Below are positions 19,438-34,019 of a DNA stretch of 40,715 bases, one piece after another. The first letter of the stretch is position 1. The number at the start of each line of letters is the position of its first letter. Origin of the DNA: Bacteriovoracaceae bacterium (GTDB lineage: Bacteria; Bdellovibrionota; Bacteriovoracia; Bacteriovoracales; Bacteriovoracaceae); the NCBI GenBank assembly GCA_947448495.1, contig CANFNX010000004.1:1-40715 (forward strand), in the 5' to 3' direction. The position numbers and the translations under genes were made by a program. The notes below the pieces were generated by a model. It ran no database searches. It saw nothing but the letters and a program-made list of their open reading frames with translations, and was not told where the DNA came from.

Positions 19438-20985
19438 TTGTCGGATACTATGGAAAATACTTTAGTAAAAAACTCCAGCATTGGTTGGGAAAAATCAAAA
19501 TTCTTTGTAAATCGGGCAGTTATATACTTCTCTTTCCTCCTGCTGCCAGTCTGGATTCAAAAATCGATTGAAGTGAATATGTTTGTTCAGTCACTTTTGA
19601 TGTTGGCCTACCTGATGTTTATGGCCGGGCAGTGGTATTTGTTGGGTAAAGAGATCGACTATCGTTTAAAAATTTATTTTCGCGCCAACTCAACTATTGA
19701 TCGCATTCTTTACCGACTGATCATCGGACATGCGACCATGATGATTCTGTTTAATCTCATGAGTTTTATCCCAGACTCCATCGTAAGGCACTTCTTCTGG
19801 GGATTCTTTGTGGTGGTAGGATTATTTTATTCTTGGCCGACTCGGGGAAAAATCATTGAGGACTCTGTCTCGACTCAATTTACAGAGTACAAGTATCTAG
19901 ATTCTTTTGAGAAGACAGTTTTGTTTTTAACTCTGGCCATGTTTTTCACTTCTATGCCGAGTTTCCCTTTTTTAAATAATCTTGAAACTTTTAAATTAAT
20001 TGTCGACCCAGAAGAGAAAATGAATGGCCAGTTGTGGAGTTATCTCCAAATGAATTTTCTTCCCTTCAGAAGATTTCCTCATCTCATTAATCTCGGCTGG
20101 AGCATGCATTTCTATTTTGTAAATTTTGTCATTTACCTTCTCGCCTTCTATGGCATTTTGCGGTTTTTTATCTCTAGGCGTCTTTCGATTCTTGGATTAT
20201 TTGCTCTTGTTTCAACGTGGAGTTTTGCCCTTTTTCTAAAAAAAGATACTTACGCCTGTGCTTCGACCACATTTTCCGTTTTGTGGGTGTGGTCTATCCT
20301 GTGGTGTGTGAAGAGTGCTACCTATCGTTCTGGTTTAATGTATGGTCTTCTTTGTTATATTGGTGTGGCTTTTAATTACAATAATGTCTTTTTATTTCCC
20401 GTTGGACTTGCCTTGCTTTATTTTTATTTCATGAGAGAAACGACGGATTGGTATCGTAATCAATTTGTTCGCTATACCACTCTAGGAATGTTTCTCATCT
20501 TAATGACATTACTCACTCATATTGATTTGCGTTTTTTTGATCAGGCGATGAGCTTTCATCAGTTTCATGTGTATCTATCAACGTTGATTCGTCGAAAGGC
20601 TTTTTATGCTCTTTCTTACATTGGGCTTGTGACTTACTTGATCTACGTTTTGAAGCCGAAAAATAAATTTTTTTCCGTTTTGAATATAGATCGTCAGCGC
20701 TTGTTTGAGTTAGGAGTGCTCGTACTCTGCCTCGTGGGTCTAGGTCTGTTTGTTGATAAGGATGCCATTAGAGGCTTTGGTGCTTTATGGATCATGGTTT
20801 TTTTCTCGCTATTGCCTCTAGAGTGGATTTTCCAGTCCATAAGCCGTCTCCGCTCGAGAAGGAATTTTATCTATATGATCTATGTCCTGGTTTGTTTACT
20901 GGACTCTCACTTCGAAGGCCGAGTCAGAATGCTGTATAACTTCTATCAATCTCCACCGGATATAGTTGAGTTTTTGAATCGTTAA
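19438..20985 (+). CDS. Polytopic membrane protein of unknown function (515 aa)
   Basis: Long ORF with many hydrophobic segments; start may be ATG 19450. Confidence 0.8.
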   Translation: MSDTMENTLVKNSSIGWEKSKFFVNRAVIYFSFLLLPVWIQKSIEVNMFVQSLLMLAYLMFMAGQWYLLGKEIDYRLKIYFRANSTIDRILYRLIIGHATMMILFNLMSFIPDSIVRHFFWGFFVVVGLFYSWPTRGKIIEDSVSTQFTEYKYLDSFEKTVLFLTLAMFFTSMPSFPFLNNLETFKLIVDPEEKMNGQLWSYLQMNFLPFRRFPHLINLGWSMHFYFVNFVIYLLAFYGILRFFISRRLSILGLFALVSTWSFALFLKKDTYACASTTFSVLWVWSILWCVKSATYRSGLMYGLLCYIGVAFNYNNVFLFPVGLALLYFYFMRETTDWYRNQFVRYTTLGMFLILMTLLTHIDLRFFDQAMSFHQFHVYLSTLIRRKAFYALSYIGLVTYLIYVLKPKNKFFSVLNIDRQRLFELGVLVLCLVGLGLFVDKDAIRGFGALWIMVFFSLLPLEWIFQSISRLRSRRNFIYMIYVLVCLLDSHFEGRVRMLYNFYQSPPDIVEFLNR

Positions 20986-22878: not shown

Positions 22879-22912
22879 GGCCTGATCTTATCAAAGCTTG
22901 CTAAGAAGGGTC

Positions 22913-23509
22913 ATGGGAAACTTTAAAGTTAAAGACCACTATTTTAATAAGGCCAAGCAGGAAAATTACCTCGCCCGCAGTATTTATAAACTGGAAGAGA
23001 TCGACCAGAAGTATAAAGTGCTTAAGAAGGGGAATTTGGTAGTGGATTTTGGGTATTACCCAGGATCTTGGATCCAGTACACCAGCAAGACCATTGGTGA
23101 TGAAGGGAAAGTCGTTGGGATTGATATCCAAGAAGTTAATAAAAAACTTGCGGGTATTAATAATGTGAGAGTTTACCAAAAAGACATCTTTAATATTTCT
23201 GACCTCAAACAACTGGACGTAGATGATCAGTTTGATGTGGTTCTCTCTGATATGGCGCCTAGCACCACAGGAGTCCAGTCCCTAGATCAAATTCGCTCCC
23301 TTAATCTGGTTGAGTCCGTCTTTGGCCTTCTGCCAAAATTCTTAAAACCCGGTGGAAATTTCGTCATTAAAGTCTTTGATTCCCAACACGCTCAGGATTT
23401 TCTTAAAGAGCAAAAAAAATTGTTTAATGAATTTCATTACTTAAAGCCAAAATCGACCCGCAGTGTGAGTAAAGAATTTTTTGTCATTGGAAAGCAGTTT
23501 AAGGCATAA
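22913..23509 (+). CDS. rlmE: 23S rRNA (uridine-2552-2'-O)-methyltransferase RlmE/FtsJ
   Basis: DHYFNKAKQENYLARSIYKLEEIDQKYKVLKKG, VVDFGYYPGSWIQYTSK, LSDMAPSTTGVQ; ORF extends to 22898 but ATG 22913 is likely. Confidence 0.85.
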   Translation: MGNFKVKDHYFNKAKQENYLARSIYKLEEIDQKYKVLKKGNLVVDFGYYPGSWIQYTSKTIGDEGKVVGIDIQEVNKKLAGINNVRVYQKDIFNISDLKQLDVDDQFDVVLSDMAPSTTGVQSLDQIRSLNLVESVFGLLPKFLKPGGNFVIKVFDSQHAQDFLKEQKKLFNEFHYLKPKSTRSVSKEFFVIGKQFKA

Positions 23510-23518
23510 TGTCCATCT

Positions 23519-24772
23519 ATGGTTTTTAAGGACTTAAACCGTCGCAGGCTCTTGTTGTGTCTGGGCTTCATATGCTCAACGACTGCCTATGCGAATTTAA
23601 ATTTCATCAAAGATAATACGCTTTTTCAAAGCCCTGCGGATATTCAGGCGATTAAATCAACGCCCTCTGAAGCTCCGAGTGAATGGAAAAATATTATTGG
23701 TAAACATCAGACTTGGGATCAGTTGATTGATTATGATTCTGCCAAGTATAAACCTCAGTATACATTTCAAAGTGATTTAGAAGAATTTATTAAGCGACAA
23801 CTTGCCGTTTATAGACCAGATTTTACTTCAGTTGTTGTTCTAGATAATGAGAACGGTCATATTTTGGCCGCTGTTGACTATGCTCGTGCTAAGAATGCTT
23901 TTGGGCGAGATTTGGCCTTCACGACCACCCATCCAGCTGCCAGTATTTTCAAAATTATCACGGCCTCAGATCTCTTAGAAAATACTCACATTAAGACAGA
24001 CACTGAATTTCACTTCACTGGACGTTCAACGACACTCTATCGCTCGCAATTAAAAGAGCCAGGGAATCATCGCTGGATTCGTAGTCTTGATTTAGAAAAA
24101 GCCTTTGCCACTTCCAATAATGTTATCTTCGGCCGCACGGCAATCGAAAACCTAACTCCTGCCGGACTCAAAAAAATGGCAGAAAAGTTTGGATTTAATA
24201 AGCGGATCCTAGAAGGTGTGAATCTTGCACCATCTGTTTTTAACATGGCCCAAGACCAATATAATCTCGCTGAATTCTCTTCTGGATTAAACACACAAAC
24301 AGTTATGAGCCCAGTGCATGGTGCAGTGATCGGGTCCGTGGTTGCTAATGGAGGCGTCTTCCGTTATCCCATTGTGATTAAATCTCTTGAGGGTCTTCAA
24401 GATAAAAAAGTCATTTATCCACCTTTGAAAAAAGACGAGCAGGTTTTGACACCGCAATCGGCAGAAGATCTTCGTACACTTTTCATGGCCACCATTGTTC
24501 AAGGAACGGCCAGATCTTCTTTCAGAAGAAGTCAGTACCTTCTGAATAAACTTGAAATTGGTGGAAAGACCGGAAGTATTACAGGTGGTGAACCGCGCGG
24601 TAAACGTGATTGGTTTGTGAGTTATGCTAAATCGATTGAAGACAAGAGTGACAAAGGTATTTCTATTTGTGTGATGATTGTGAATCAAAAGAAGTGGTAT
24701 ATAAAGTCACCGCTTCTCGCTAAGAACATCATGGAATATTACTACTCAACTATTTTCCCCAAAAAAAAATAA
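23519..24772 (+). CDS. Penicillin-binding transpeptidase-domain protein, single domain with signal peptide
   Basis: SxxK in AASIFKI, SNN motif, KTGS in GGKTGSITGG; N-terminal signal sequence. Confidence 0.88.
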   Translation: MVFKDLNRRRLLLCLGFICSTTAYANLNFIKDNTLFQSPADIQAIKSTPSEAPSEWKNIIGKHQTWDQLIDYDSAKYKPQYTFQSDLEEFIKRQLAVYRPDFTSVVVLDNENGHILAAVDYARAKNAFGRDLAFTTTHPAASIFKIITASDLLENTHIKTDTEFHFTGRSTTLYRSQLKEPGNHRWIRSLDLEKAFATSNNVIFGRTAIENLTPAGLKKMAEKFGFNKRILEGVNLAPSVFNMAQDQYNLAEFSSGLNTQTVMSPVHGAVIGSVVANGGVFRYPIVIKSLEGLQDKKVIYPPLKKDEQVLTPQSAEDLRTLFMATIVQGTARSSFRRSQYLLNKLEIGGKTGSITGGEPRGKRDWFVSYAKSIEDKSDKGISICVMIVNQKKWYIKSPLLAKNIMEYYYSTIFPKKK

Positions 24773-24784
24773 AAGGTCCTGATT

Positions 24785-25585
24785 ATGCAAGAAAATGAAA
24801 CCCAAGAAGTCACCACTCCTGTGGAGTCTGAAGCTGCAGCTGTCATTGCACCAGGATTGTCGAAAAAAGAAAAATTTATTAAGGAAGCTAAATCCTTTAC
24901 TTGGATTATCCTCTCAGTGCTAATTTTTCGTTCCGTTCTTTTTGAACCATTTAAAATTCCCTCTGGATCAATGATTCCAACGCTCTTAATTGGTGATTTT
25001 ATTTTGGTGAATAAATTTTCTTATGGTTTCAAAGTACCCTTCAGCGATTGGTTTTCTGACCCCATCTATCTTACTGGTCCCTCTCAACCTGAAAGAGGGG
25101 ATGTTATTGTATTCAAATATCCAATCAATCCGAGCATTAACTATATCAAACGTGTGGTTGGTCTTCCTGGTGACACAATTGAGGTGATTGATAAGGTTGT
25201 TTATGTGAATAATACGCCAATCGAAACCAAAGAGATTGATGGCAAAAAAATCATGGAAGACATGGATGATCGTTATAAAACATATCAGTTCAAATTCATG
25301 GAAACGAAAACTGGTAAAACAACTCACGTGACCCAAGTTGATACTGGGAATGATTATTTTGCTAACTACTACAAATTCACGGTGCCTAAAGATAACTACT
25401 TTGTGATGGGTGATAATAGAGATTTTTCTGCGGATTCGCGTCGCTGGGGGACGGTTCCATTTGGAAATATTAAAGGCAAGGCCATTGCCGTCTGGTTTTC
25501 ACTCTCAGTTCCTTGGCCGGGAAGTGAGGATGAGCAGGAATCTTTCAAGTTTAGGCCTTGGCGTATAGGAACAATTATTGATTAA
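24785..25585 (+). CDS. lepB: Signal peptidase I
   Basis: IPSGSMIPTLLIGDFILVNK, GDVIVFKYP, YIKRVVGLPGDTIEV, YFVMGDNRDFSADSRRWG. Confidence 0.96.
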   Translation: MQENETQEVTTPVESEAAAVIAPGLSKKEKFIKEAKSFTWIILSVLIFRSVLFEPFKIPSGSMIPTLLIGDFILVNKFSYGFKVPFSDWFSDPIYLTGPSQPERGDVIVFKYPINPSINYIKRVVGLPGDTIEVIDKVVYVNNTPIETKEIDGKKIMEDMDDRYKTYQFKFMETKTGKTTHVTQVDTGNDYFANYYKFTVPKDNYFVMGDNRDFSADSRRWGTVPFGNIKGKAIAVWFSLSVPWPGSEDEQESFKFRPWRIGTIID

Positions 25586-25587
25586 CG

Positions 25588-25613
25588 AAAGGCTCCTCAG
25601 GGAGCCTTTTTTA
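25588..25613. terminator. Terminator between convergent lepB and mutS2
   Basis: AAAGGCTCC-TCAG-GGAGCCTTT plus T-run. Confidence 0.9.
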
Positions 25614-27977
25614 TTTAGAAATGACTCTTGTTTCACCATCATTGCCAGATTCCGAACCATCGATCTGAAAGTCTTTTGATTTTTTTATATAATCACGAAG
25701 CCAATTTTTGAGCACTCCATCTCCATGTCCATGAATGACATTAATGAAGGGAATATCACCCGTTAAGAGGTCTCCCAGAGCATGTTCAATCATGTTCTGA
25801 CATTCTGATAAACGCATACCCCTGACATCGTATTCAAATTTAGCATCATTGTTCTTTTGAAATGAAACGCTGACTTTGGGTCTCAGAGGAGCTTTTTTGG
25901 ATGTCCCAAGTGTCGAAACAGGTACAGAAATTTTGATAGGGCCTTTTCCTATTTGGACTTCATTTTTGCGAACATCGAGCCCAAGTACTGTGAATTCTTT
26001 TTTGAGAACATGAGAGTATACAACATCTCCAATTTTGAGCTGGGTTATGATGACGTCACCCTCAGGAACGATGACTTCAGGTTCAGGTACCTCACCCTGA
26101 AGGGAGCGAATTTTCACATGGAGTTGGTGAGATTTTTCATCAACCCGTTTAGTTTTAGTGATTTCTTGTTTTCGAGCTTCTTCAACTAAATCTCTTGCTT
26201 CTTGGAGGATTTTGTCCACCTCACGTCGGGCCTTGGTGAGTTCTTCATTCAGTTTAAGGGTCAGGACTCCTTCCATGGCGCCTTTTTGATTTTTAAGTTC
26301 CACCTCGAGTTGTCGATTATGGTTAAGTAACTGATCTAATTCAATTTGCTTTTGTGAGACACGCTGGAGGAGAGTTTCATAGCTAATATTTTTAGTGTTG
26401 AGATGCGAAAGTGCTCGATCTGGCACTGATTGGACGAGCGGATTTTTTTGCGCAAGTATACGAAAAATATCTATCGCCATGGAGGCCCCAGGTGTTCCCC
26501 ATTGGATTTTATAAGTTGGTTTCATGTTTTGCGTATCAAAACCAACGTGACAGGAAATATAGGAGCGATCTTGGTGAATGAGTGTTTTAAACATTTGATG
26601 GTGAGTTGAGACCACAATATGGCATGTTGCACGTGCGTGGAGTTCATCAAAATATGCCAAAGAGAGAGCAGAAGCTTCATCCGACGAGGTTGAATTAAAA
26701 ATCTCATCGATAAGAATTAAGTTTGTTGGATGGATATGTTCAAGAAGTTCAATGTAGTTTTTAACTTCTCCAGAAAATGAACTCAGGCCAACTTGCAAGT
26801 TTTGGAGGTCATTGCCAAAATAGAAAAGTCCCTCATAGGGAAACATTTCTGCTTCAGTCGCAGGTACAAAAAAACCGTGATAGAAAAGTAGATAAGATAG
26901 AGTTAAGGATTTTAAAAAGACAGTTTTCCCACCGGTGTTTGGGCCTGAAATAACGATTCCATGGTCTTTTAGCGAGCAGTCGGCATTATTTTTTACAGGC
27001 TGCTTAACTAAAGGATGGAAGAGTTGAGTGAATTTGAATCCAGGTGTTGATCGGATGCTTGGACATTGCAATCGATACTCAAGGGCAAAATGAGATTTTG
27101 CTAAATAGTAATCAATCCTTAGTAATTCATGTGAAGACTTTTCTAATAGCTCTGAGAAATCAAAAAGATTATAGGAAAATTTCATCGCCAGTTGATTAAT
27201 GATTTCATCAATCTTCGCAATAATCTCAAGCCGTCTATTGCAGTATTCACGGATAGGGAAGGGTTCAACAAACAGGGTTGATCCTGACTCAGAGCGGGAT
27301 ACAATGAGACCAATATCCGATCGATAAGAGTCAGACCTCACTGGAACAACAAACCTATCATAGTGAATGTCATAGCTATTATACTGAAGAGTTTTTTGAT
27401 TTCCTGGCACAGTCATCCATTCTTGAACAGAGCGCCTTATGCGTTCTTCAAGTTCTCTCAATCTCTTGTTGAGATCAGAAAGTTCTGGGTGACGATCAAA
27501 ATGAACGTCTCCCGATTCATCAACGAGATAACGAAATTCTTTCAGAAATTTACGCTGAAGTGGAGCAAAATCTATTTCACCGAGATTTTTGAATTCGGCA
27601 AGTCGTAGCTGTGAAAATTCAGTTTTTAGGAAGAGTGCAATTTCGAGTAGACGAGTGAGTTTATTGAGTTCAGCGAAGTTTAAGATTCCTTTTTTGCTAA
27701 TATGATCTCGACAGCGCTCTAAACTCTTGTCGGCGGGCAATTTGCCAAAAATTTGGGCCAGAAATTGGCGATCCTCATCCTTGAGTTCGCTCAAATAGCT
27801 TTGAGTGCGGACGAATTCTTCACTTAATTGATCTAAATGGCCGTGGAAGAGTTTCTTGGTGAGGTCTTCCTTATTTCTCTCAAAGTAAGCAAACTGGGTT
27901 ATAATTTTACAAAGAAGGTTCCATTCAACTTGCGTATGGTGAACTGAGAGATCAGTGGAAATTAGATTAATGCTCAT
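25611..27977 (-). CDS. mutS2: MutS2 (MutS-paralogue ATPase with KOW-like and Smr segments)
   Basis: Walker A GPNTGGKTVFLKS, Walker B NLILIDEIFNSTSSDE, KOW-like KIGDVVYSHVLKKEFTVLGL, Smr YDVRGMRLSECQNMIE...NVIHGHGDGVLKNWL. ORF extends to a TTG at 27986; ATG at 27977 likely. Confidence 0.93.
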   Translation of the reverse strand: MSINLISTDLSVHHTQVEWNLLCKIITQFAYFERNKEDLTKKLFHGHLDQLSEEFVRTQSYLSELKDEDRQFLAQIFGKLPADKSLERCRDHISKKGILNFAELNKLTRLLEIALFLKTEFSQLRLAEFKNLGEIDFAPLQRKFLKEFRYLVDESGDVHFDRHPELSDLNKRLRELEERIRRSVQEWMTVPGNQKTLQYNSYDIHYDRFVVPVRSDSYRSDIGLIVSRSESGSTLFVEPFPIREYCNRRLEIIAKIDEIINQLAMKFSYNLFDFSELLEKSSHELLRIDYYLAKSHFALEYRLQCPSIRSTPGFKFTQLFHPLVKQPVKNNADCSLKDHGIVISGPNTGGKTVFLKSLTLSYLLFYHGFFVPATEAEMFPYEGLFYFGNDLQNLQVGLSSFSGEVKNYIELLEHIHPTNLILIDEIFNSTSSDEASALSLAYFDELHARATCHIVVSTHHQMFKTLIHQDRSYISCHVGFDTQNMKPTYKIQWGTPGASMAIDIFRILAQKNPLVQSVPDRALSHLNTKNISYETLLQRVSQKQIELDQLLNHNRQLEVELKNQKGAMEGVLTLKLNEELTKARREVDKILQEARDLVEEARKQEITKTKRVDEKSHQLHVKIRSLQGEVPEPEVIVPEGDVIITQLKIGDVVYSHVLKKEFTVLGLDVRKNEVQIGKGPIKISVPVSTLGTSKKAPLRPKVSVSFQKNNDAKFEYDVRGMRLSECQNMIEHALGDLLTGDIPFINVIHGHGDGVLKNWLRDYIKKSKDFQIDGSESGNDGETRVISK

Positions 27978-29312
27978 ATGATTCAATATTATCTGGATTT
28001 ACAAAAACAGGTCAAAGCTATTCAGTCATTTCAAGATTCTTATGCTCAAATTCAGAAGATATACAGCACTTCCATGTTTATTTCCTTATCGATTCGCTCA
28101 CCTGGAATCACTTGGTTTCTCTATTTAGGTCGCGGTGGAGGTCAGGAGGGAATCTGGAAAGGGGACTCACCACCATCGTCGACGTTAAGACGAAAAGATA
28201 ATTTTCTTGAGTATCTTCGAAAACATTTAAGTTCATGTAGTTTTATTTCGCTAGAACTAGATAAATACGATCGGATTGTGAAATTAAATTACCAAAAATT
28301 TGGCCAACTTCAGTCCATCCTCTTCTTTTGGAAAGCTCGAAAACTTTATTTTGTTCATTATTATCAGGATCGTCCTGAAGAACCTTTTAAATTGCTCCTG
28401 AGTTGGCATGGAAAGGCGATTATTCCAAATGAAGACCTAGGAAATCTATTTGATTTCTTTAATGAGATTGGACGAAAAATGGACATGAAGCATGATTTAA
28501 CATCAGCGGCTCCCTCATCCATAGATCAGCTTTTGAACGATGAGCTTATGGCAGCAAAAATGAAGGGGTTGAGCTCTGCCCCCACTTTTCTGCAAAGAAA
28601 AATCACAAATATCGAGCAGGATTTAACTCGTACAAAGCAATGGAATCAATTGCAAGACCTCCTTGATCAGGGAGAGTCCCTTGAAATGTATGAACTCAAA
28701 GTGGGTGATCATAAAATAAAATTTGAGGGTGATCTTAATCCTTATGAACGACGAAATCTCCTTTTTGAGAAAATTAAGAAATTAAAAAGGGGAGAGGGGA
28801 TTTTAAGCAAACGGCTCCAGGATGCAAAAGATGAATTAGCTGGGAAAAACATTCAGAAGGTAGAGTCCTCATTACTTCCTTTAGTTAAACCTGTTTGGGG
28901 GAAAGAAGAACTCAAATCCGTTTCTATCAGTCGCGAGGCCGAGAAAGAAGACTACCGAATTTTTAAGTTTGAGGGGTTTTCGATTGGGGTTGGTCTTAGT
29001 TCGTTTGGAAATGATCAATTAAGAAGCAAATGGGCGAAAAAGGATGATCTATGGTTTCACCTTGATAATCTTAAAAGTGCTCACGCCATTTTGAAGTTAA
29101 ATTCCTCATCTATCGTTTCGTCTGAAATGATGAACCTTGCCGCTTCAATAGTTGCCTATTTTTCTCATTTTCACGAGGAGTGGATACCCATCATTTTTAC
29201 TCCGATGAAAAATTTGAAGGGTGTTACAGGTTCCTCAGGTATGGTAATATACAAAAAAGAAAAGCATTTACGTTGCTCTAAAATTAGTTCATCCGATTGG
29301 TTAAAGGAATAG
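27978..29312 (+). CDS. rqcH: RqcH/NEMF-like protein (NFACT-N and NFACT-R), short form
   Basis: NFACT-R-like DDLWFHLDNLKSAHAILKL...MMNLAASIVAYFSHF, coiled-coil middle, NFACT-N-like DKYDRIVKL with DR dyad. Confidence 0.82.
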   Translation: MIQYYLDLQKQVKAIQSFQDSYAQIQKIYSTSMFISLSIRSPGITWFLYLGRGGGQEGIWKGDSPPSSTLRRKDNFLEYLRKHLSSCSFISLELDKYDRIVKLNYQKFGQLQSILFFWKARKLYFVHYYQDRPEEPFKLLLSWHGKAIIPNEDLGNLFDFFNEIGRKMDMKHDLTSAAPSSIDQLLNDELMAAKMKGLSSAPTFLQRKITNIEQDLTRTKQWNQLQDLLDQGESLEMYELKVGDHKIKFEGDLNPYERRNLLFEKIKKLKRGEGILSKRLQDAKDELAGKNIQKVESSLLPLVKPVWGKEELKSVSISREAEKEDYRIFKFEGFSIGVGLSSFGNDQLRSKWAKKDDLWFHLDNLKSAHAILKLNSSSIVSSEMMNLAASIVAYFSHFHEEWIPIIFTPMKNLKGVTGSSGMVIYKKEKHLRCSKISSSDWLKE

Positions 29313-29314
29313 TC

Positions 29315-30121
29315 ATGAGAGCTCTTTTATTCTTAATTGCCTCTTTATTTGCTTACTCAGTTTGGGCCCAAGATCCCAACGTCTACTTAAATAATTTTGA
29401 TGCAAAAGTTTATTCCTTGAAAACAAAAGGCGTTCAGGATTTTGTTGTTGATATTGAAAGCTCAAAGTTGACTCGTCAGTTGAATGACCAAATGATTTTT
29501 GGAAAAGTAGAAAATGTCATTTTTAGAACGTACTGGACTGCAAATCCAGAAAGATTGGCGATTGAAATTATTGGTCTGCCTGAAGGTTTTAAAGAAATTA
29601 AAGAAGAACTTAAACTTTCCGTTATGTCCATCTTGGATGCGCTGATACCGCCAACCACTCTACAGAGATTTGCAGGATATAAATTTCAAGTTGGAGCTTC
29701 TGCAAAACAATTTACCGCAACTGACACAACTGGAATTGCAGCTGTTCAAAACTACATTTTCAAGTTTGATGATCAGGATAGACTCGTTAGTGTGATTGGT
29801 AAGAAAGTTGTGGGAGAGCTGGAAATTACTCCAAAATTTGAAAAGGAGAGTTTCGCAGATGGGAAATGGGTTCTCAGATCTCTTAAAACCGCCAACACTG
29901 AACAAGGACAAACTTTTACCGTTATAAAAGATCTCGCCTATGGAAACCATCAAGGAATGGGTGTCCTCAGCCGTCTTAAAGTGACAACGGAGCAAACCTC
30001 AACCAGTAAAGGCTCTAAACAGTTGATTTTAGAGGAATCCTATGAATTCAAAAACTACAAAATCAATGCCGGAGAAAGTCTAAAATATTTCCTGGGTGAG
30101 GGGCCTAAAACCTCAAAGTAA
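29315..30121 (+). CDS. Secreted/periplasmic protein of unknown function
   Basis: Signal peptide MRALLFLIASLFAYSVWAQ; ATG 29315 follows the rqcH stop by 2 nt. Confidence 0.75.
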   Translation: MRALLFLIASLFAYSVWAQDPNVYLNNFDAKVYSLKTKGVQDFVVDIESSKLTRQLNDQMIFGKVENVIFRTYWTANPERLAIEIIGLPEGFKEIKEELKLSVMSILDALIPPTTLQRFAGYKFQVGASAKQFTATDTTGIAAVQNYIFKFDDQDRLVSVIGKKVVGELEITPKFEKESFADGKWVLRSLKTANTEQGQTFTVIKDLAYGNHQGMGVLSRLKVTTEQTSTSKGSKQLILEESYEFKNYKINAGESLKYFLGEGPKTSK

Positions 30122-30194
30122 AGCGACCCTGTTATTTCTACAGAGTTCACTCTCATTCTCTTCTCTATCACTTGGCGAGTGATAAAATCCGGAC

Positions 30195-33100
30195 ATGTCT
30201 TTTACGTCGCTTCTCGCTCTTATTTGTATCGCCATAGGTCTGTGTGCTTGCACGGGGCAATCACCTGCGCCTTTAAAAAATTCAACTAGTTTTCGAACTC
30301 CTATTAAAGAGTCATGTTCAGCACTTGTTTTCGATGGACAAGTATTAAGTAAAAAAAATGTTCTGAATATTTTTGATTGCACAGGCTGGGCAAAAAAATA
30401 TCCAAGTCTCAATCGTGCGCTGCTCGCTACTGAAGAGTCATCCATAGATCGATTTTTTCGGCCCCTCAATCATTCTCTTTTTAGCTCAAAAGATAAGCGT
30501 AAACAACTTTTCGATGTAATTGCTTTGGCCGAATCAAGAGGCGAGCTCTCACCTCTGGCAGTCCTTTTGGAGCAATCGATTAAGCAGCATCAAATACTAA
30601 AAAAGATGAAAGACTTTGCATTCTCAGAAGCTCTGAATGATCAAGAAAAAATAATGCTTGTAAATATATTCAATGGGGCAGAAGAGAAAAACTTCCGTGA
30701 TTTAAAGGCAACAAAGAGTTTTGCGACTGCCTTCGAAGCTCAAAAATTAAATCTGCTCAAAGTGATCACTCCAGAAAGAGAAAGTAAGATCATCTCGATA
30801 ACGGAGTCACTCTTAAATGAATTGTCTCTTGGAGTAGATCAAAAAAGCTGGGGCTATTTATCTTCCCTTATGGGTGGCGAAGGATTTCCCATCAAGCAAT
30901 GGGCGACATTAGGATCGGATCAAGATCCATCCGTCTTGTTGAAGGTTATAGAAAAACCGGACTTTATAAAAGACATAAAAGTACTCAATCAAGGAATTCA
31001 CAACGGGATTATTTGTCATAACCAGAGTAACGCCAGAGATTTCAAAGTTGATATCGGTGAGGAACTCGCTTATGTCGTCGAGTCCTTGAAGACAGATTCA
31101 AGAGAATATTTTGAAGCGACACTGTTACATGGACTAACTAAATACTTTGCCTTTGAATCCTTTTGTGAAGAGGATGTCTATCAGCAGGGATTAAAATCCT
31201 ATTATGATGTCGTAAAGTATGCCTTTGATGCCATAAAGTCTGACCACGATTATATTTTTTTAAAGAAGATGCATCAGGTTTACCAGAATGATCATTTTGC
31301 CTTTCTGAACTTTCTTGAAACCGATTTTTTTGCAAAAATCAGAGAGCTTCTCATTGATCTGTCCCATACCAATGAAGATACGGAATTCAATCACATTGTT
31401 TTCGATGTACTTAAGATGCCGCTTGAGGAGGATTATGAAACACTCTCTGGCAATATCTCCCTTTTAGAGCAAGACTCTGTTGCGAGTCAAAAGCTAGCAA
31501 CCTGGAATACATATTGGAAATCCCTTTCAAGCGAAGAGAGTTCACAACTGGCGTCGCTGGTCATGCTAGCGCTTCATCCTGAAGTCGATTTTAGTAAAGT
31601 GTTGAACTTAAACCTTAAAATGCTTGAAGCGTTTCCTGATCTAAACCAAGAACTAAGTCTCTATCTCTCAAGTGCTGATTCTCAGCAAGATTTAAGAAGT
31701 CTTCTTGCAGTCATGTCGGAAGATGGTGTTGAGTCAGAGTTGGCGGATTTCTTTTCACGGCAAGGTCTTTTTGAGTTGATTAAAGTTTTAACGAAGGATT
31801 ATTTGTCGTCATCGCATTTAAAAAAGCCATCCCCATTGATCCCTCGTGCGGAAGAAATAAAAGTGAATTATGTTGATAAGGTCAGTAGTGAAAATGAAAT
31901 TGCGAAACGAGCGTGCTTTGATGTGTTGACTCGACAATACGAATTAAACAATTCCTACTATGCACTTGTTAATCAATTGCCTCCTGTTTGCCTAAAGCAA
32001 TTAGGTAGCGTGGGCTTTGTGGGACAAATTTATCTCTGGATGAATGCGAGTGAGGCTTTTTTTGAATCACGCTTTCAAGTTGACAACTATCACACAAGAG
32101 CAGGTGTATGGTCACCTGGAATGTTACAGTTTATCTTTTCAGCCGCGATTGAGGCGGATCTTACCTTAAGATCGAAAAATGGCGAAAAAGGTCTTGCTTC
32201 AAATCTTACTGTCATTCATCGTCGACTCACTTCACCTGAAGTTATTCAATCCGTGGTTCAATTGAGTCGTTTGGTAGATTCTGCACAGAAGACAATTAAT
32301 CTTGATCAACATATCGAAAACTTCTTTGAAGTTACCCCTGAAAAAGATTTTAAAAAATTGATCCAGAATAGTTTTTCTTTGCTTGAAGAAGTCACGCCGC
32401 AAATTAAGGTCAAGTCTACCCAAAGTACCTGTCGGGACCTCAGTGCTTCATTAAGAGTAGATCCGTGCTTGTCCAACACAGCTACCACTCAAGATGTCAT
32501 CGAGTTATTAAGATTGCTAAAGAGAAAAAATGAAAAGGGTGACTCTTTACTCAAAAGCCTTCTGAGTTGGGTTCATCCAAGAGGTGGAATAGAGATTCCT
32601 TTTTCTGGCGTTAAGGGAAAAAGAAAATCGACTAGTTTTGATGAAATTATCCGATTCTTAATGGATCTCTCAGACCAAAAAACGAGTAAGGAGTTTGTGT
32701 TCAGAAACAAGGGCATCAAGACTCATCAGCAGGGCACTGTGCTAGATCGTCTTGAAGTGGTGATCAGAGATATCTCCTTTTTGAATAATTTCTATGGGGC
32801 GTATTTTAAAAACAATGTCGCAAAAGCGCAGAACTATCGTTATGAAATTCAATCTTCTGAAAAGCTATTGCGTCTTATGGATGATTCGAGTGGAATTTTT
32901 AGAACGTTGCATGTTTTTCCTATTGAAACAAAAGAAAGACTAAAGAATGTACGGCAGACCTATGCCTCTTTGCTTGAAGTTGATGATCAGTATCTTCAGG
33001 CCGATGGCACGACACGCTCTTATGGTGATTTTATTCAGAGTCTTTTAGCTGCGATTACAGAATCCTCGCTTGAATCCACTCAGAATTTTAATCCCTATCA

Positions 33101-34019
33101 AAAACCAAAACCAGAAATGGTGAATGGGCACAATGGTCAGTTTCTCACCAAAGTGGTTGAGATGTCAGGTCTTCGTCACTTAGCAAGAATCGTAAGAGCA
33201 AGATTCACACCCGATTTATCAGCTCTTATCACTCCACAGTTTAAAGTGATTAACACGAAGCTATTTGGTCGACACGACCTTGAGAATATTCAAAAATTTT
33301 GGTCAGCACTTTTCGATCAATACCTTGATGAAGATCGAAATCAGATCAATTTATTGATTTCGGATCTCGTTAGCTTGCTTTCGGATATGTCTCCGAATGA
33401 ACAAGCTATACTGGAGGAAATCGGAATCAAAACGATGCTGCTGCTCTCAGATGAACGATTAGATTCAAAAACCATGGATCAAATGGGTCAGCTCCTCAAT
33501 CTTCTTGTTTCTCAATGGCCGGAAATGAGAGAAGTTTTTGGACAAATTCAAGAGCGAGAAAAGCTGCTGATGATGATTAATACCTCTTTAGATCATTTTG
33601 TAGAAAATCCTCAGTTACTATCTCAACTCATAAACGTCTTTGTTGGCCAAATTTTTACCGTGGAAGATCTTGCGAAGTTAGTTCAAGATGCAACCTTTAG
33701 ATTTGAATTGATGACATGGATGAAAATGGCTACCACTGAGGCGGAAGGGAAGGATGAGTTAAACTGGTCGCAGACATTCAAAGCGATTTTCGCCAATGAT
33801 AATATCCAGTGGGGTCCACTCAAGGAATGGCTCATTCACTCCACCAGAAGCAGTGAGCCTAAGTTGACTCTTTCACTTTTACTGCATGTCCTGGGGGAGA
33901 AGACTGACCAAGGCGTCCGCTACAAAGTCATGATGGATGAATTATTCTTGAATCATCGACCTCAGCTTGAAGTTTTTCTCAAAGAAACCTTCGCTCATTT
34001 ACATCTGATTTCCGACTAG
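30195..34019 (+). CDS. Very large (1274 aa) predicted lipoprotein of unknown function
   Basis: Signal sequence with lipobox-like GLCAC at residues 15-19; single uninterrupted ORF. Confidence 0.8.
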   Translation: MSFTSLLALICIAIGLCACTGQSPAPLKNSTSFRTPIKESCSALVFDGQVLSKKNVLNIFDCTGWAKKYPSLNRALLATEESSIDRFFRPLNHSLFSSKDKRKQLFDVIALAESRGELSPLAVLLEQSIKQHQILKKMKDFAFSEALNDQEKIMLVNIFNGAEEKNFRDLKATKSFATAFEAQKLNLLKVITPERESKIISITESLLNELSLGVDQKSWGYLSSLMGGEGFPIKQWATLGSDQDPSVLLKVIEKPDFIKDIKVLNQGIHNGIICHNQSNARDFKVDIGEELAYVVESLKTDSREYFEATLLHGLTKYFAFESFCEEDVYQQGLKSYYDVVKYAFDAIKSDHDYIFLKKMHQVYQNDHFAFLNFLETDFFAKIRELLIDLSHTNEDTEFNHIVFDVLKMPLEEDYETLSGNISLLEQDSVASQKLATWNTYWKSLSSEESSQLASLVMLALHPEVDFSKVLNLNLKMLEAFPDLNQELSLYLSSADSQQDLRSLLAVMSEDGVESELADFFSRQGLFELIKVLTKDYLSSSHLKKPSPLIPRAEEIKVNYVDKVSSENEIAKRACFDVLTRQYELNNSYYALVNQLPPVCLKQLGSVGFVGQIYLWMNASEAFFESRFQVDNYHTRAGVWSPGMLQFIFSAAIEADLTLRSKNGEKGLASNLTVIHRRLTSPEVIQSVVQLSRLVDSAQKTINLDQHIENFFEVTPEKDFKKLIQNSFSLLEEVTPQIKVKSTQSTCRDLSASLRVDPCLSNTATTQDVIELLRLLKRKNEKGDSLLKSLLSWVHPRGGIEIPFSGVKGKRKSTSFDEIIRFLMDLSDQKTSKEFVFRNKGIKTHQQGTVLDRLEVVIRDISFLNNFYGAYFKNNVAKAQNYRYEIQSSEKLLRLMDDSSGIFRTLHVFPIETKERLKNVRQTYASLLEVDDQYLQADGTTRSYGDFIQSLLAAITESSLESTQNFNPYQKPKPEMVNGHNGQFLTKVVEMSGLRHLARIVRARFTPDLSALITPQFKVINTKLFGRHDLENIQKFWSALFDQYLDEDRNQINLLISDLVSLLSDMSPNEQAILEEIGIKTMLLLSDERLDSKTMDQMGQLLNLLVSQWPEMREVFGQIQEREKLLMMINTSLDHFVENPQLLSQLINVFVGQIFTVEDLAKLVQDATFRFELMTWMKMATTEAEGKDELNWSQTFKAIFANDNIQWGPLKEWLIHSTRSSEPKLTLSLLLHVLGEKTDQGVRYKVMMDELFLNHRPQLEVFLKETFAHLHLISD

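Follow-up and report, generated by a model that had tools for sequence, protein, structure and literature searches.

A Divergent mutS2–rqcH Pair With Abutting Start Codons in Bacteriovoracaceae: A Candidate Ribosome Splitter and Compact RqcH in One Locus

Introduction

In Bacillus subtilis, MutS2 (RqcU) has an Smr domain of the DLR/HGxG type, which binds ribosomes that have collided and leaves their mRNA uncut; Ala-tailing is lost in cells devoid of MutS2 (PMC10897456). Tailing in this organism also requires RqcP, and the HhH domain contacts tRNA (PMC8012679), the HhH region being part of the published architecture of RqcH (PMC8373112; PMC8012679). RqcH has also been described in other phyla without RqcP or YlmH, and how it works there is an open question (PMC11317155). 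MutS2 is present in 97% of the genomes with RqcH, and in the Bdellovibrionota each of the two proteins was found in 5 of 6 genomes (PMC11633108). The functional link between MutS2 and RqcH is thus already known, both from their co-occurrence (PMC11633108) and from the loss of Ala-tailing without MutS2 in B. subtilis (PMC10897456). Here we analyse a stretch of 40,715 nucleotides, hereafter the window, from a Bacteriovoracaceae bacterium (assembly GCA_947448495.1, contig CANFNX010000004.1, positions 1 to 40,715; contig C4 of a draft genome of 2.85 Mb with 87% completeness), in which mutS2 and an rqcH-type gene stand head-to-head with touching start codons.

Searches in PMC, whose coverage leaves out most subscription journals, retrieved no published report of a head-to-head pair with shared start codons, nor of an RqcH without HhH. 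To our knowledge, mutS2 and rqcH are not head-to-head in B. subtilis, unlike the pair in the window. Touching or overlapping starts, a compact RqcH and embedded promoter-like motifs lead us to propose a pair formed by a splitter and a ribosome-associated quality control (RQC) factor, with probably interdependent expression, a reading to which we assign a probability of roughly 0.6.

The Start-Codon Junction

The mutS2 gene (25611..27977, minus strand, 788 aa) and the rqcH-type gene (27978..29312, plus strand, 444 aa) are divergent, and their ATG starts, at 27977 and 27978, respectively, abut as CATATG (27975..27980) with zero intergenic bases, just as the initial annotation had read both open reading frames (ORFs) and the hexamer. 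Neither start can lie far upstream, since the reading frame stays open past the ATG for only ~4 codons in rqcH and ~7 in mutS2. The exact abutting arrangement (gap 0) recurs in each of the 25 genomes of the genus whose junction is readable, and a 2-bp overlap of the two ATG codons (CATG) in 52 of the 60 other family genomes fetched, from 23 genera; the remaining eight show start gaps of -26, +1, +3, +6, +9 (three genomes) and +51. The script applied to these 60 genomes favours close start pairs, and its starts agree with the homology-defined first residues. Three further CATG junctions were found in G031, G034 and G059 (genera g7, g10 and g32), and the physical pairing of both genes is kept in at least 26 genera besides that of the window. 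The adjacency is therefore not confined to one strain, as the initial annotation had left conceivable, but kept across the family, and the head-to-head pattern is much older than a single strain. Among 73 divergent pairs, obtained by a simple ORF method from 540 kb of G016 (same genus) and G027 (same family), only mutS2–rqcH has starts separated by 3 bp or less, and no other pair comes closer than 9 bp; start bases shared between two genes are seen nowhere else among the divergent pairs of this sample. Outside the family, mutS2 and rqcH are divergent neighbours with gaps of ~6-100 bp in families f17, f20 and f24, form a same-strand pair in f7, lie ~30 kb apart in f8, and are distant in f6 and f12.

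A serious alternative, to which we grant a substantial minority weight, is that the junction is locked by neutral processes, so that a CATG shared in a gene-dense genome would persist without regulatory meaning because any indel damages one of the two genes. No spacer remains that could drift, and CATATG corresponds to CATG plus one 2-bp AT repeat, the two states being one AT duplication apart. On the other hand, mutational exits exist (the gaps of +1, +3, +6, +9 and +51 bp) and yet are rare, relocation of mutS2 also occurs, and the pair is likewise divergent, with real gaps, in f17, f20 and f24.

The RqcH-Type Protein

The plus-strand gene is a genuine RqcH homologue whose product is compact, the HhH region being absent. 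The NFACT-R domain (PF05670, NFACT-R_1; 38.5 bits, Pfam cut-off 29.8) spans residues 326-434 (28953..29279, plus strand), where the NFACT-R of CCDC25 superposes at 2.7-3.4 Å root-mean-square deviation and the fold also matches the NFACT-R of NEMF. The NFACT_N score is 30.6 bits, just under the Pfam cut-off of 31, and the RqcH of a relative (L026) reaches 35.1 bits, above it; membership of NFACT-N, assigned to residues 1-141 (27978..28400, plus strand) from the secondary structure of the model and the profile alignment to RqcH, is borne out by profile A3 (positions 14-127 against RqcH 14-133), AlphaFold2 and Foldseek. Within this region, the D98 R99 dyad (GATCGG, 28269..28274, plus strand) aligns with D97 R98 of B. 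subtilis, 30 of the 31 family RqcH sequences having D98 and 29 having R99; both the NFACT-R segment and the dyad had been correctly recognised in the initial annotation. An AlphaFold2 model built from the 31 family sequences (mean pLDDT 86; pTM 0.52, with a flexible domain arrangement) predicts the NFACT-N and NFACT-R folds, and Foldseek places B. subtilis RqcH first (E = 1.6e-15), followed by Rqc2 of yeast and NEMF of human. The domains superpose individually but are positioned differently, which keeps the TM-scores of the whole chains low (~0.28). Coiled coils and a beta-hairpin M domain occupy residues 182-289 (28521..28844, plus strand), with strands 239-248 modelled between long helices. 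NFACT-N with a D-R dyad, a coiled coil with a beta-hairpin M domain, and NFACT-R are the features shared with B. subtilis RqcH and eukaryotic Rqc2/NEMF.

What separates the protein from B. subtilis RqcH is the segment between NFACT-N and the coiled coil. The family profile matches the latter protein (E = 1.3e-19) over positions 19-105 against 18-104 and 152-432 against 265-555, leaving 47 profile positions (105-152) opposite 161 residues (104-265). Accordingly, ~114 residues of the HhH region are missing, and profile and model place there a short linker with a single 8-residue helix (residues 142-181; 28401..28520, plus strand). No HhH domain is found between NFACT-N and the coiled coil, and the protein, with 444 aa instead of 570, is a variant rather than a canonical RqcH. 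A comparable gap is observed in the RqcH of other Bdellovibrionota families (f8, f17 and f24), and frames of ~430-550 aa are typical across the phylum; the short length remarked upon in the initial annotation is hence correct but not special. A gene-prediction error or a strain-specific truncation was ruled out by these phylum-wide lengths together with the profile alignment.

MutS2 and Its Co-occurrence With RqcH

The minus-strand product is matched over its full length by NCBIfam TIGR01069 (427.5 bits, cut-off 400, residues 16-785), and its best PDB match is B. subtilis MutS2 (8qpp_W, phmmer E = 3e-64), aligned over residues 147-781. The MutS-type ATPase (PF00488, 77.1 bits) contains the Walker A motif GPNTGGKT (residues 345-352; 26922..26945, minus strand), invariant in 16 family MutS2, and the Walker B motif LILIDEIF (residues 420-427; 26697..26720, minus strand), in which D424 and E425 are invariant in the same set. 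The Smr domain (PF01713, 38 bits, cut-off 25.7) covers residues 717-785 (25623..25829, minus strand), with DVR at 717-719 and HGHGDGVL at 749-756; D717, R719 and HGHG are invariant, and the DxH nuclease motif is absent from the 16 family members, which have DxR instead. GPNTGGKT, LILIDEIF and HGHGDGVL are all largely invariant in the family, in agreement with the motifs first assigned to the protein. The KOW-like segment also assigned to it corresponds to a stretch at ~residues 646-695 (25893..26042, minus strand) that aligns with B. subtilis MutS2 in phmmer but has no Pfam KOW match. Likeness to B. subtilis MutS2 thus extends to Walker A/B, the KOW-like region, and an Smr domain with DxR/HGxG replacing DxH. 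In the MutS2 tree, family f1 is set apart from all other families (midpoint root, uncertain).

Among 100 family genomes, 96 have rqcH. A strict search yielded 89 with MutS2, to which G059 and G023 (where a contig end cuts the gene) can be added from separate observations, for a total of ~91/100. MutS2 without rqcH was found in none of the 100 (Fisher p = 3e-5, a value that does not hold for independent samples, the genomes being related). These data bear on whether MutS2 is mainly a DNA-acting protein that suppresses recombination, as has been proposed for Helicobacter and Thermus MutS2, its proximity to rqcH being incidental to RQC. Such a role, which we hold to be highly improbable, would agree with the MutS-type ATPase and with the shorter chains 7vuf and 9kce, deposited as “Endonuclease MutS2” without a ribosome; the nearest full-length structural relatives are nonetheless the B. 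subtilis MutS2 entries 8qpp, 8r55 and 7qv3, Smr DVR/HGHG matches the splitter (PMC10897456), and the co-occurrence with RqcH is strict.

Partner Factors of the Rescue Pathway

Searches with the S4 model found no short S4 protein of RqcP/Hsp15 type in 34 family genera; this model gives Escherichia coli Hsp15 51.9 bits and should thus be able to detect one. In ten same-genus genomes, Pfam S4 is matched only by RpsD-, TlyA-, RluB- and TyrS-sized frames, besides contig-edge fragments; the TlyA- and RluB-type genes of the window genome were read and confirmed, and reading of its mid-sized S4 genes excluded YlmH for this genome, the only one checked gene by gene. Two genera have S4 frames of 73-77 aa with weak scores (~26 bits), which by eye are YbcJ-like rather than RqcP-like. 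SmpB is present in 29/29 relatives, and transfer-messenger RNA (tmRNA; tag GNDYAMAA) is whole in relatives. The window genome does not lack tmRNA altogether, as Rfam had hinted: BLAST recovers the gene in two parts on separate contigs (C110:10167-10380 and C39:22033-22098). Thus, of the two factors that the initial annotation would seek elsewhere in the genome, no recognisable RqcP emerged from the S4 searches, and tmRNA is present across two contigs. G013 and G014 likewise have a split tmRNA gene, and G010 carries an additional, partial copy (positions 136-348), which suggests a repeat or integration site at tmRNA.

An RqcH without a recognisable S4 partner is a trait shared with the RqcH of other phyla (PMC11317155). 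Together, the missing HhH region and the lack of a recognisable RqcP, needed in B. subtilis, render the label “tailing factor” conditional, and the loss of HhH fits either an altered tailing factor or one no longer tailing. Alternatively, the plus-strand product could be an NFACT protein of derived function, still binding 50S-peptidyl-tRNA or tRNA but having lost alanine tailing; it might, for example, stabilise the nascent chain, release it or mark it in another way. We consider this rather unlikely: an NFACT_N score at the edge of the Pfam cut-off adds to the two absences in its favour, but 29-30 of 31 rows retain the D-R dyad, RqcH occurs without RqcP/YlmH in other phyla (PMC11317155), and Rqc2 of eukaryotes needs no RqcP.

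Promoter-Like Motifs Inside the Opposite Genes

As no spacer separates the two genes, upstream signals must sit in the opposite coding sequence. A candidate -10 element for rqcH, TATAAT (27900..27905, plus strand), lies in mutS2 codons 25-26, with the best site at -78 in 23 of 25 same-genus genomes; a candidate mutS2 promoter, TTGACC-18-TAATAT or TTGACC-16-GATAAT (27986..28015, minus strand), lies in rqcH codons 3-13, with the best site at -14 in 16 of 25. Codons 19-39 of mutS2, where the TATAAT falls, show elevated conservation of synonymous sites within the genus (max-corrected p = 0.0025 for the strongest window); over rqcH codons 7-14, the region of TTGACC/TAATAT, conservation reaches 0.74 against an expected 0.49, this second increase being not significant after correction. 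The best promoter scores of both genes exceed 25/25 synonymous resamplings within the genus and outside it, and the best positions scatter outside the genus. Shine-Dalgarno signals encoded in the opposite gene were discarded, as they showed no excess over synonymous resampling save for rqcH in the window genus. The neutral origin of the junction considered above gains from this want of selection on Shine-Dalgarno strength in most genera, and loses from the conservation of the synonymous sites beneath the candidate promoters.

Proposed Mechanism and Its Significance

By homology, MutS2 would bind collided ribosomes through its Smr and KOW-like regions and split them by ATP hydrolysis; RqcH would then bind the obstructed 50S subunit with peptidyl-tRNA and direct tailing with tRNA picked by the D-R dyad of NFACT-N, the role of RqcP being taken by some other partner or by none. 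The analysis favours a splitter and a 50S-bound NFACT factor, with tailing as a presumed activity, since Smr DVR/HGHG is as in the non-cleaving splitter of B. subtilis, where loss of MutS2 abolishes Ala-tailing. Each promoter would lie inside the coding sequence of the other gene; in the window genus, the predicted rqcH leader, given the TATAAT at -78, would cover the mutS2 5' end in antisense, and mutS2, with its TAATAT at -14, would have next to no leader, so that expression of the two genes is probably interdependent. We infer both the Ala-tailing by the window RqcH and its regulatory coupling with mutS2. The genetic link between splitting and tailing factors put forward in the initial annotation is supported as regards identities, placement and family-wide conservation, and is conditional for the word “tailing” and for co-regulation.

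Several observations weigh against the proposed coupled pair. The arrangement is not obligatory: five family genomes have rqcH without MutS2, and genus g52, possibly along with the drafts of g44 and g45, has mutS2 at another place. Shine-Dalgarno strength exceeds resampling for a single gene of a single genus, the promoter-like enrichment could partly reflect an AT preference near starts, and the joint absence of HhH and RqcP weakens the tailing claim. A more ambitious version, in which the HhH-less RqcH tails without RqcP and in which shared start bases and antisense 5' mRNA couple splitter and tailer obligatorily, with reciprocal control reading out stalling, appears decidedly doubtful.

The excludon (PMC7154746) is a comparable arrangement of divergent genes with predicted transcript 5' ends overlapping antisense; the window genes differ from it in sharing a pathway and their start codons, and the likeness is one of promoter-like sequence alone. 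Touching or shared start codons would link two steps within a single rescue pathway, of which the family may have a reduced version. The family pair bears on the question, posed in PMC11317155, of RqcH function where neither RqcP nor YlmH is present, and a bacterial family whose RqcH also lacks HhH offers a natural minimal system for the parts needed to read tRNA-Ala.

Genomic Setting

The gene block of the family follows the order rlmE-type methyltransferase, PBP-type transpeptidase, lepB, inverted mutS2, rqcH and secreted protein. In the window, lepB (signal peptidase I; 24785..25585, plus strand; TIGR02227, 167 bits) is the upstream member, and a predicted secreted protein of 267 aa without Pfam/NCBIfam match (29318..30121, plus strand) lies downstream of rqcH; similar secreted-protein genes follow rqcH in L312-L318. 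In genera g8, g48, g52, g44 and g45, rqcH directly follows the lepB region on the same strand; mutS2 was not found at all in g8 and g48, and is placed elsewhere in g52 and on another contig in the g44 and g45 drafts. Genomes with mutS2 moved or lost and lepB joined to rqcH constitute natural controls. In genus g8 (L312/L313; G032 and G265), a one-base overlap joins lepB to the co-oriented rqcH, which makes this genus a natural example of RqcH in the absence of mutS2.

Upstream of lepB, positions 22898-24772 encode an FtsJ/RlmE-type methyltransferase (180 bits, RlmE cut-off 300) and the PBP-type transpeptidase, the block being conserved across genera; a 515-aa ORF at 19438-20985 has zero Pfam/NCBIfam matches. 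The two genes after rqcH (29318-34019; 267 aa, predicted secreted, and 1274 aa) are both without such matches. At the rqcH 3' end (29148-29290, codons ~392-431), synonymous conservation is raised in the genus (max-corrected p ~0.01 at best), and this region contains GGTATGGTAATATAC, which resembles an extended -10 element and lies shortly before the gene for the secreted protein at 29318.

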